Below, piece by piece: positions 21,270-24,875 of a stretch of DNA of 34,144 nucleotides; position 1 is the first letter of the stretch; every line of letters starts with the position of its first letter. This DNA is from Verrucomicrobiota bacterium. Its GTDB lineage: Bacteria; Verrucomicrobiota; Verrucomicrobiia; Limisphaerales; AAA164-E04. The notes beneath the pieces were generated by a model. That model made no database searches, was not told the DNA's origin, and was given only the letters and a program-made list of their open reading frames with translations. Made by a program: the position numbers and the translations under genes. The DNA lies in contig JAQCFT010000010.1 in the NCBI GenBank assembly GCA_027619545.1, positions 1 through 34,144 of the forward strand, read 5' to 3'.

Positions 21270-21745
21270 TCAAGGTTCTGTGGTGCCGACTGTGAGTCTG
21301 TAGAATGCCGACAATTCGAGTCGAATCGGTTTCATGAAAATTTTCTCGATGACGTCTTCTACCTGGGTTTCCAATTCATATTCAATGGGTTTGCCCAATC
21401 TGAATTCTCCATTCCGATCCTGCCAGAGTTCGGCGACCCAAGTCACCAGGATATCAGATTTTTCCAATCCAAAGTAAAATTCGCTTCGATCAATACGTCG
21501 TTTGAATCTCAATGTCAGTTTCCCATCCTTGACTTCCACCCTCAGCGGGGAGGCAGCTTTACGGATCGGTGGGGTCAGTGTTCTGGGCAAATTCCATCAA
21601 GTTGGGAATGCCGTCTTCATCAAAATTGGCATCTTCCGCCACCTTGTCCCAGTTGAATGGGCGAGCGCTGTCGTGACTGTGATGGTCATACAAATTCAGG
21701 AGAGGCCCCGGGGTATGCCTTTGAGCAGATGACAAAGCAGTGTGG
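21270..21745 (-). pseudogene. Frameshifted C-terminal remnant of a large repeat-bearing surface protein
   Basis: Two minus-strand frames together give a typical Verrucomicrobia-style C-terminus. From about 21745 one frame reads DHHSHDSARPFNWDKVAEDA, then NFDEDGIPNLMEFAQNTDPT, a calcium-binding thrombospondin-type-3/dockerin-like loop, and stops at DP-TAA. The shifted frame continues (21590-21270) as ASPLRVEVKDGKLTLRFKRR and ILVTWVAELW, the beta-rich tail that normally follows that loop. No start codon or signal precedes the first part, and it butts against the redoxin stop. It therefore reads as the decayed end of a much larger gene. If only the second frame is expressed it would be a 106-residue TTG-start protein, which seems unlikely. 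Confidence 0.6.
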
Positions 21746-21748
21746 TTG

Positions 21749-22615
21749 TTAGGGGATTTTTTCCAATTGCTCGATCAGTGTTTCCGGGCGGACGCGCACA
21801 CGCCAATTTTCGGGCAGAACCCTCCATGCGATGTTTCCTTCGCGATCCAGCACGAAGGTGGCTGGCCTGGCGATGTCCTGATCGCCCATTGGATGGGCGC
21901 TGACATGCTTCAGTCCGAAGGCCTCGATCGCTTTACCATTCAAATCGGAGAGTAATTGGAATCCAAACCGCTGTTTGGTGGCCAGTTTTCGATTGTCCTC
22001 CACGGAATCGACACTGATGGCTAACACTTCGGCGTCCAAGGCTCTGATATCTTCAATGCGTGACTGCAAACCTTGCAGTTCTGATACACAGAATGGTCAC
22101 CAATAGCCCCGATAAAACGTAATGATCAATTTCTTTCCATTGAAGTCCGACGGACTGACCGGATTGCCTTTCTGATCGTTCAAAGTAAATTCGGGGACGA
22201 CATTCAGGCTTTCAGTGATCTCGGTGGGGGCTGGGACTTGATACGAAATGTGAACGATGTAACCGCTGAAAAGACTGGACAGGAACAGAGAGAATGCCAG
22301 GGAAACGGTCCCCAATATCTTACCTCGGTAAATGTTCGATTTGAAAAAGGCGCGCCACGTTCCCAGGCATGACACGCATGTGCCTATCAACACCAGTGGG
22401 AGATTGATAACAGGTGTGTCACGCAGGTCCGGGTAACGAACAAAAAAAGTAAAATAGCTGACCGCACCCACAAAAACAATCAACGGCCCAAGCCAGATGG
22501 CATGGTTGCGCTTTTGTGCGGGCATCGGCTGATCGGCGGCTTTCACTATGGAGTCATCAGCACTCATGGCGCCTATGTTTGTCACGCTTTGACGAAAAAA
22601 CAATGTCCAATTCAT
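21749..22615 (-). CDS. Membrane-anchored redoxin (AhpC/TSA-like) with an in-frame UGA at the active-site Cys: probable selenoprotein
   Basis: One continuous reading frame of 288 codons broken only by TGA at 22097-22099. Residues before it: a cytoplasmic start, three hydrophobic segments (~40-60, ~68-90, ~100-120), then a thioredoxin-fold beginning (PEFTLNDQKGNPVSPSDFNG, KKLIITFYRGYW). The TGA is codon 173, followed by PFCVSELQGLQSRIEDIRAL, LAISVDSVEDNRKLA, HVSAHPMGDQDIARPATFVL and EQLEKIP. Peroxiredoxin/redoxin relatives read FYRGxWCPFC at this point, so the TGA replaces the peroxidatic cysteine, giving UxxC. A SECIS-like hairpin follows. Everything downstream remains coherent, against simple decay. 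ATG 22615 is the longest start; ATG 22567 (MSADDSIVKA) is equally plausible. Substrate is probably a peroxide or disulfide at the outer face of the membrane. The alternative is a nonsense mutation. Confidence 0.75.
22059..22090 (-). promoter_or_regulatory. Candidate bacterial SECIS element
   Basis: In the mRNA the bases after the UGA include a perfect 7-bp stem, ACTGCAA paired with TTGCAGT (genomic 22079-22073 and 22069-22063), closed by a GGU loop at 22072-22070. The first loop G is 25 nt after the UGA. Bacterial SECIS elements are stem-loops just downstream of the Sec codon, with a conserved apical G (often GGU-like) about 16-37 nt away. A lower stem UGUG (22090-22087) with CACG (22062-22059) can extend it across an internal loop. 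Confidence 0.65.
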
Positions 22616-22670: not shown

Positions 22671-24875
22671 TTAAACCGAGTCAAAACGTGCGGCCAGGCT
22701 CAGGCGGTGTTTGAGTCCTGAGTGCCGGTGGGCGTTTTTGGCATTGCGTACGGCCATGGCGAGAGCCTTTTTTTGACCGATGAGCAGGACGAGCTTTTTG
22801 CCACGGGTGACTCCGGTGTAGATGAGATTGCGTTGAAGCAGCATGTATTGCTGAGTTGCAACAGGGATAATGACGATCGGGAATTCCGAGCCCTGCGATT
22901 TGTGGATGGTGATGGCATATGCCAGTGAAAGTTCGTCCAGTTCACCGAAATCATAGACGATCTGTCTGTGGTCGAACTGGACTGTGACTTCCTTTTCCAT
23001 CCCATCGATTTTCAGGATGTGTCCGATGTCACCGTTGTAGACTTCCTTATCGTAGTTGTTCTCGGTTTGGATGACCTTGTCCTTCACTCGGAATTGCCAG
23101 CCGAATTTTTCGACATAGGCGTCTCCTTGTTTCATCGGGTTCAAGGTGTTTTGCAAGGTTAGATTGAGATCGCGTACACCCAGGCTGCCTCGATTCATCG
23201 GGCAAAGCACCTGAATGTCCCGGATGGGGTCCACTTTGAATTTGGCCGGAATGCGGTCCCGAATCATCTGCACCAGTGTGGATGCTATTTTCTCCGGTTC
23301 TTCACGTTCGATGAAAAAGAAGTCATTTGACGGTTCATCTTCTTCCGTGAGGGGGAGTTGGCCGTGATTGATCCGGTGTGCGTTGGTGATGATGTGGCTT
23401 CCGGATGCCTGTCGGAAGATTTCCTTCAGGCGAACCACGTGGGTGAGCCCGCAGTCAATCAGGTTTTTGAGCACGGAACCAGGCCCAACAGATGGAAGCT
23501 GATCCACGTCGCCTACGAGGAGCAGATGCGCCTCCCGGGGCAGGGCTCTGAGGAGGTGATGCATCAAAGGGATGTCCACCATGGAGCATTCGTCGACAAC
23601 CAGAAGTTGTGTCTCCAGCGGTGATTGTTCGTTGTGTTTAAATCTTCCGGTGCGTGGATTGACCTCCAATAACCGATGGATGGTTTTTGACGGGAAACCG
23701 GTGGACTCGGACATGCGTTTGGCGGCTCGCCCTGTCGGTGCGCAAAGCAAGAAGGAGACCTGTTTGGCATGCAGGATTTTCAGGATGGATCGAATGATCG
23801 TTGTTTTACCGACACCCGGCCCACCTGTAATAATGATCAGACGATGTTCCAGTGCATTCCGAATTGCCAGCATTTGAGAGGCGGCCAATTGGATTTGAGA
23901 TCGTTCCTGAATCCATTCAATGGCCTTGTCGATGTCGATCGGTGGATAGTGTGCTCTTTGTGCAGCGATGGAACCGATGCGTTGGGCGATGGTTTCTTCG
24001 GCTTGCTTGAGAGCGGGAAGAAATATCAGATCGGTTTCATCAATGCATTCCTTTTCAACATCCCGGGCATTCAAGGATTGTTGCAGGCCATGTCGGACGA
24101 TGTCTTCGCTCACTTGCAGCAGTTCGGTGCTGTGCAGGACCAGCATGTCTTCCGGTAGCGCGCAATGTCCGTTGGAAGTGGCCTCGATCAGGACATGGTT
24201 CAATCCGGCCTGTGCGCGGTGCATGGAGTCTTCAGGGATGCCCAGTTTGCGGGCGATTTGATCGGCGCTTTTGAATCCGATGCCTCGAATGTCTTTTGCC
24301 AGGATGTAAGGATTGGCCTGGATTTTTTCGATCGCTTCCTCGCCGTAGGTTTTGTAGATGCGAACCGCGCGACTGGTGCTGACGCCGTTTGAGTGGAGGA
24401 AAACCATGATTTCCCGAACCATCTTCTGCTCTTGCCAAGCGTCTTTGATCTTTCGACGCCGACCCGGACCGATGCCGTCGATTGTTTCCAGTTTAGCGGA
24501 GGCGGTGTCGATGATGTCGAAGATCGTGTCGCCAAATTTGGCTACCATTTTTTTGGCGTAAACCGGGCCGATCCCTTTGATCATCCCGCTGGCGAGGTAC
24601 TTCTCGATTCCCTCAATGTTGGTCGGCGGTGTGCAGACCAGGTTGTCCGCTTTGAATTGAAGGCCATGATCACGATCGCGTGTCCAAACTCCTTCGGCTT
24701 TGACCCATTCACCCGCATTAGCTGAAACCGATTTACCGACCAGGCTAAGCAGGTCACGACGGCCTTTGACTTTGATGCGTAGCACGACGAATCCGGATTC
24801 CTCATTGAAGTAGGTGACACGTTCAATGAGGCCGGAAAGACTTTCCTTTTTCTGACTGGAACGGCCTTGGGTCAT
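22671..24875 (-). CDS. recD2: RecD2-type ATP-dependent DNA helicase
   Basis: A 734-residue superfamily 1B helicase. The N-terminal OB-like domain (~10-85) and tandem helix-hairpin-helix stretch (MIKGIGPVYAKKMVAKFG, IDGIGPGRRRKIKDAW) are features of RecD2 rather than RecBCD RecD. The motor motifs are in order: Walker A GGPGVGKTTIIRSIL (~350), Walker B VDECSMVD, LLVGDVDQLPSVGPGSVL (motif III), a UvrD_C_2 region with SLAYAITIHKSQGSEFPIVI (motif V) and LIYTGVTRGKKLVLLIG (motif VI). Length matches the family (~730-750). RecD2 is a 5'-3' helicase working in DNA repair and fork processing in the cytoplasm. It is a housekeeping gene among accessory exported genes, with the redoxin gene following about 55 nt downstream on the same strand. 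Confidence 0.93.
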   Translation of the reverse strand: MTQGRSSQKKESLSGLIERVTYFNEESGFVVLRIKVKGRRDLLSLVGKSVSANAGEWVKAEGVWTRDRDHGLQFKADNLVCTPPTNIEGIEKYLASGMIKGIGPVYAKKMVAKFGDTIFDIIDTASAKLETIDGIGPGRRRKIKDAWQEQKMVREIMVFLHSNGVSTSRAVRIYKTYGEEAIEKIQANPYILAKDIRGIGFKSADQIARKLGIPEDSMHRAQAGLNHVLIEATSNGHCALPEDMLVLHSTELLQVSEDIVRHGLQQSLNARDVEKECIDETDLIFLPALKQAEETIAQRIGSIAAQRAHYPPIDIDKAIEWIQERSQIQLAASQMLAIRNALEHRLIIITGGPGVGKTTIIRSILKILHAKQVSFLLCAPTGRAAKRMSESTGFPSKTIHRLLEVNPRTGRFKHNEQSPLETQLLVVDECSMVDIPLMHHLLRALPREAHLLLVGDVDQLPSVGPGSVLKNLIDCGLTHVVRLKEIFRQASGSHIITNAHRINHGQLPLTEEDEPSNDFFFIEREEPEKIASTLVQMIRDRIPAKFKVDPIRDIQVLCPMNRGSLGVRDLNLTLQNTLNPMKQGDAYVEKFGWQFRVKDKVIQTENNYDKEVYNGDIGHILKIDGMEKEVTVQFDHRQIVYDFGELDELSLAYAITIHKSQGSEFPIVIIPVATQQYMLLQRNLIYTGVTRGKKLVLLIGQKKALAMAVRNAKNAHRHSGLKHRLSLAARFDSV

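Follow-up and report, generated by a model that had tools for sequence, protein, structure and literature searches.

On the minus strand of the window, i.e. the entire 34,144-nucleotide stretch of DNA that was analysed, positions 22615-21749 form a single frame of 288 codons that terminates with TAA and contains one internal TGA (22099-22097) at codon 173. Translation with TGA read as selenocysteine (Sec, U) joins two minus-strand open reading frames (ORFs) into one 288-residue protein, as had been proposed in the initial annotation of this DNA, which relied on the letters alone. Under Table 11, gene calling yields two ORFs of 172 and 106 aa, of which the second begins at an internal TTG 27 nt past the UGA, and the expectation that standard annotation would lose the gene is thus confirmed. 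Met17 (position 22567) is an alternative start codon of the complete gene (21749..22615) and may be the true one; homologues begin nearby. The joined protein matches PF00578 (AhpC-TSA) over residues 139-264 (21824..22201, minus strand) with an E-value of 9.4e-31, and this match runs across the TGA, which agrees with the earlier view that the redoxin sequence is intact on both flanks. The separate halves give only E-values of 7.5e-4 and 9.5e-7 against NF006960. Within the domain, the UGA codon (22097..22099, minus strand) occupies the first position of a UPFC motif.

Upstream of the selenoprotein gene, a RecD2-like helicase gene is encoded on the same strand (22671-24875, minus strand) and ends 55 nt away from it. 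Just downstream, positions 21270-21720 of the minus strand carry the apparent C-terminal end of another protein, which is spread over two frames (NLMEFAQNTDPTDP stop, then KAASPLRVEVKDGKLTLRFKRRID...) and probably represents the fragment of a decayed or frameshifted gene. A comparison of the neighbourhoods of the homologues revealed no conserved gene neighbour.

The AlphaFold2 model of the protein (mean pLDDT 84) consists of three helices followed by a PrxQ/AhpE-like domain. The three hydrophobic segments that had been noticed ahead of the redox domain correspond to predicted transmembrane helices at residues 39-56 (22448..22501), 68-92 (22340..22414) and 96-121 (22253..22330), all on the minus strand; the first is also apparent from inspection of hydrophobicity, and the second and third are also supported by the charges of the loops. 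Nearly all members of the family have their net positive charge at the N-terminus and in the helix 2-3 loop, with a helix 1-2 loop that is close to neutral. According to the positive-inside rule, this pattern predicts a cytoplasmic N-terminus and a periplasmic redox domain, and the three N-terminal helices would hold the redoxin-fold domain on the periplasmic side of the membrane. For the N-terminal part, no Pfam family matched at a meaningful score. A conserved Cys pair within the helices is absent across the homologues, which makes a DsbD-like relay inside the protein unlikely.

Foldseek searches with the model returned PrxQ and AhpE as the top matches, with TM scores (target) of 0.83-0.89, and the domain thus adopts a peroxiredoxin fold in the model. 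The initial annotation had placed the Sec at the peroxidatic Cys, but this assignment has to be revised: in profile alignments with Aeropyrum pernix PrxQ and Mycobacterium tuberculosis AhpE, the Thr/Ser of TxxC is matched by U173, and the counterpart of the peroxidatic Cys is Cys176 (22088..22090, minus strand), the final residue of UxxC and present in 35/35 members. Compared with the peroxiredoxin motif PxxxTxxC, the sequence RGYWUPFC has Arg instead of Pro and Sec instead of Thr, and the catalytic Arg of peroxiredoxins (R116 in AhpE) is replaced by Pro251 (21863..21865, minus strand), a Pro conserved in 34 of the 35 members. Of the four catalytic residues of peroxiredoxins, only one is thus left, and the combination of UxxC with Pro is thioredoxin-like. 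Pro251 also coincides with the cis-Pro position of TlpA-type proteins, a term that denotes the position in the alignment here. Two paralogues of the window genome frame this residue: the peroxiredoxin-type L018 has Arg at the position of Pro251, and the TlpA-like L024 combines WCPPC with Pro there.

The alignment of U173 and C176, together with the exchange of the catalytic Arg for Pro, suggests that the active site is thioredoxin/TlpA-like rather than peroxiredoxin-like. A PF00578 domain carrying UxxC is the arrangement of the Prx-like UxxC thiol:disulfide oxidoreductases, and as far as the sequence can tell, we favour a thiol-disulfide oxidoreductase over a peroxidase, with some reservation. 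In the proposed mechanism, UxxC and Pro251 would work as a thioredoxin/TlpA-like thiol-disulfide oxidoreductase, in which Sec173 makes the nucleophilic attack and the mixed selenosulfide is then resolved by Cys176. Such a protein would probably serve to reduce oxidised thiols or disulfides, and possibly peroxides, at the cell surface. The alternative that survives best is a selenoprotein acting as a membrane-bound peroxidase, with Cys176 attacking the peroxide and Sec173 resolving. PrxQ and AhpE as the best folds, the alignment of C176 with the peroxidatic Cys and the nearest NCBIfam name, thiol peroxidase, although this match is well under its cut-off, are in line with a peroxidase; the replacement of Pro and Thr of PxxxTxxC by Arg and Sec, and of the catalytic Arg by Pro in 34/35 members, renders it unlikely, if still a serious contender.

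Including the window gene, the family comprises 34 three-helix members from two phyla and one single-helix relative, and the identity to the window gene is 30-59%. All 35 members contain one TGA in the same alignment column, preceded by W and followed by Cys at +3. Whether homologues have Cys or UGA at codon 173 had been named as a check, and UGA is present in every three-helix member found. Above the search thresholds, a Cys form at the TGA column was encountered in none of the 34 three-helix members and in 0/35 overall. In a set of 58 genomes, in which all candidates were scored at E ≤ 1e-20, the gene is present in seven, including the window genome, with one TGA per copy. Judged by gene content, the window probably belongs to Verrucomicrobiota. 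Searches of 388 genomes of the phylum and 320 genomes of the order added two and seven genes, respectively, giving a running total of 16, and 396 genomes of a second phylum, selected around the L030 genome, yielded 19 genes; in these large searches, 6-8 candidates were scored per genome and the thresholds were E ≤ 1e-35 or 1e-40. The second phylum is presumably Acidobacteriota, the L030 genome being labelled as Pyrinomonadaceae. L030 itself is a distant homologue with Cys, a redoxin that lacks the three-helix anchor, and was the sole find when a genome collection was scanned for close relatives. A haloarchaeal plasmid sequence at first resembled a Cys form that retained some of the membrane region; it was discarded because the annotated gene encodes a 176-aa redoxin lacking that region.

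The family tree contains two groups with both phyla present in each, which indicates that the family is old or has been transferred between phyla. One genome (G523) encodes two family copies, L110 and L112, each with a TGA. The residue following Sec varies, with UVFC, UTFC and UGIC in L120, L126 and L130, and the Cys at +3 is retained. In L133, the N-terminal part is apparently frameshifted. The single-helix relative, L134, is a divergent and shorter UxxC redoxin in which the catalytic position holds Arg in place of Pro and the hairpin after the UGA differs as well (TGCGCG-AGTT-CGCGCA); it possibly links the family to ordinary Prx-like selenoproteins.

In the window gene, a predicted bSECIS hairpin (ACTGCAA-GGT-TTGCAGT; 22063..22079, minus strand) with a 7-bp stem and a GGU loop begins 17 nt past the UGA, and the distance from the UGA to the loop is 24 nt. 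It conforms in loop, G position and spacing to the published bSECIS rules, i.e. a loop of 3-9 nt, a G within the first two loop positions and a spacing of 16-37 nt (PMC13188914, section 5). Two hairpin types, A and B, occur in the family. Against the energy rule of ≤ -7.5 kcal/mol, the upper stem of type A alone reaches -6.4 to -7.1 kcal/mol; the 50-nt region folds at -10.1 kcal/mol, which is not better than shuffled sequences. With the 9,196 codons of the other genes in the window as background, an equally or more stable hairpin under the same rules follows 4.4% of the codons, and 0.3% are followed by one whose stem has no fewer than 7 Watson-Crick pairs and whose loop does not exceed 5 nt.

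In both types, the stem coincides with the top window of synonymous constraint in the gene. For type A (15 sequences), 433 of 511 same-residue codon pairs at codons +7 to +11 are identical versus 253 expected, an excess roughly three times as large as in the best window outside this stretch of the gene. For type B (16 sequences), the constraint peaks at codons +4 to +8, on the hairpin AACTCCG-AGTTG-CGGAGTT. An alternative type B hairpin of 11 bp with a CCG loop was rejected: it is broken by L109, and the AGUUG-loop hairpin fits the constrained codons. Covariation counts are small, with three compensatory base-pair changes in total: in L111 the closing pair changes from A-U to G-C, and in L132 two adjacent pairs are swapped and an otherwise conserved Ser becomes Leu. 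When the partner columns are slid, pairing falls from 96% and 92% to at most 54%. As evidence for a SECIS element, conservation is the stronger argument.

The search for the Sec machinery, the other check that had been proposed, was successful for selA and selB in the window genome, whereas selD and tRNA-Sec were recovered from congeners and not from the window assembly (515 contigs, 88.7% complete). selA and selB are directly adjacent in one operon on contig C218 and score 464 bits (cut-off 268) and 302 bits (cut-off 242), respectively, against the NCBIfam models. No selD above the cut-off was found in the 88.7%-complete assembly, and its matches below the cut-off resemble ThiL and PurM, which belong to the same superfamily. 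Likewise, a tRNA-Sec was not detected in this assembly: seven of eight candidates are tRNA-Ser, -Leu, -Cys or -Trp and the eighth is an ordinary tRNA truncated by a contig end. At 88.7% completeness, the chance of losing both selD and tRNA-Sec is about 1% if the two are independent. Among the congeners searched, selD is present in 4/4 and a tRNA-Sec with a TCA anticodon in 3/4; the selD genes of the congeners and of several relatives (L053-L059, L061-L064) have their own in-frame TGA and probably encode a selenoprotein themselves. Across the 58-genome set, selB occurs in six of the seven genomes with the gene versus 19 of the 51 without it (Fisher p 0.02). One relative, G009 (85% complete), has the TGA-containing gene (L035) at a contig edge and no match for selB, selD or tRNA-Sec, which may reflect an incomplete assembly, a binning error or machinery loss.

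A strain in which the Sec machinery is under loss, and in which the UGA may now be a stop codon that relatives still decode, could account for the lack of selD and tRNA-Sec in the window assembly and for G009, where the gene is found without the machinery. We consider this improbable in view of the intact selA, selB, gene and hairpin, the fragmentation of the assembly and its completeness, and the presence of selD in all four congeners. Still less probable is that the UGA is read as an ordinary amino acid, by a reassigned code or a suppressor, or that two peptides arise by translational restart. The possible TTG start past the UGA and the missing selD and tRNA-Sec are compatible with this, yet TGA terminates 10 of the 20 long ORFs of the window and is thus a normal stop there, which excludes a genome-wide reassignment of the code; in addition, a restart would split the redox fold in the middle of the active site, and both selA and selB are present, as is a constrained hairpin. 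That the gene is a dying pseudogene with a nonsense mutation at a Cys codon, or a product of sequencing error, as the two truncated ORFs of the annotation and the frame-split fragment just downstream might suggest, is already refuted by the comparative data, namely the same-codon TGA in 35/35 members from two phyla, intact coding sequence on both flanks and synonymous constraint exactly on the hairpin.

From these sequence comparisons, the gene very probably encodes a real selenoprotein. Both parts of the earlier proposal, a UGA read as Sec and a membrane-fused UxxC redoxin, hold up, the first through the same-column TGA, the constrained hairpin and selA-selB, the second through UxxC within the PF00578 domain and the three-helix model. 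UGA173 would be decoded as Sec by SelB and tRNA-Sec under the direction of the hairpin. The reading as a whole, i.e. a selenoprotein with a PrxQ/AhpE scaffold that is anchored by three helices, faces the periplasm and works as a UxxC thiol-disulfide oxidoreductase, is assigned a probability of about 0.8.

UxxC redoxin selenoproteins are well established and have been known since 2005 (PMC1088965, PMC2398784, PMC1794560, PMC13188914), and UxxC instead of TxxU has already been described for Prx-like selenoproteins (PMC1088965). The window family shares with the Prx-like UxxC selenoproteins the PF00578 redoxin domain and Sec as the first residue of UxxC (PMC1088965, PMC2398784, PMC13188914), but it has, in addition, a conserved N-terminal anchor of three helices, and the searches recovered no Cys form of it. 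The TxxU Sec-peroxiredoxins and PrxQ/AhpE have the same fold, PrxQ and AhpE being the closest solved structures, whereas the Sec of the window protein lies three residues before the peroxidatic position and Thr and the catalytic Arg are missing. With TlpA/ResA, the protein has in common a CxxC-type motif, Pro at the cis-Pro position (as seen in the alignment with L024) and a presumed periplasmic domain; different from these proteins, it has three helices instead of one, Sec replaces the first Cys, the sequence and fold are closer to PrxQ/AhpE, and it scores far under the cut-offs of the ResA and TlpA models.

A three-helix-anchored form is not described in the openly available main texts searched, and to this extent the membrane-fused form is indeed little described. 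An earlier unlabelled listing may exist, e.g. as a catalogued 'Redoxin family protein' with UxxC. What appears to be new is that the family has a three-helix anchor, is distributed in Sec form only and lacks a curated family model. Among UxxC selenoproteins, many families are small Sec branches of Cys enzymes that are themselves abundant; as GOS Prx-like 1 is mostly Cys (225 Sec versus 2,740 Cys sequences), a family for which no Cys form was found is unusual. With no Cys form found in either searched phylum, this membrane-anchored and probably periplasmic selenoprotein would provide a good test case for Sec retention. More tentatively, and at somewhat less than even odds, these proteins could represent an undescribed, Sec-obligate family of three-helix membrane redoxins in two phyla, in which Cys cannot substitute for Sec. 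Such a selenoenzyme would be exposed at the surface and have a substrate or membrane partner of its own, instead of being the Sec version of a common Cys enzyme.

The SelL-related model NF040769 is matched weakly by 34/35 members, and the window protein reaches 39 bits at a cut-off of 120. The motif of SelL is UxxU, and that of the window protein is UxxC. The best E-values of the other members against NCBIfam are modest. Every NCBIfam cut-off lies well above the score of the window protein, and annotation pipelines will therefore probably continue to split such genes.
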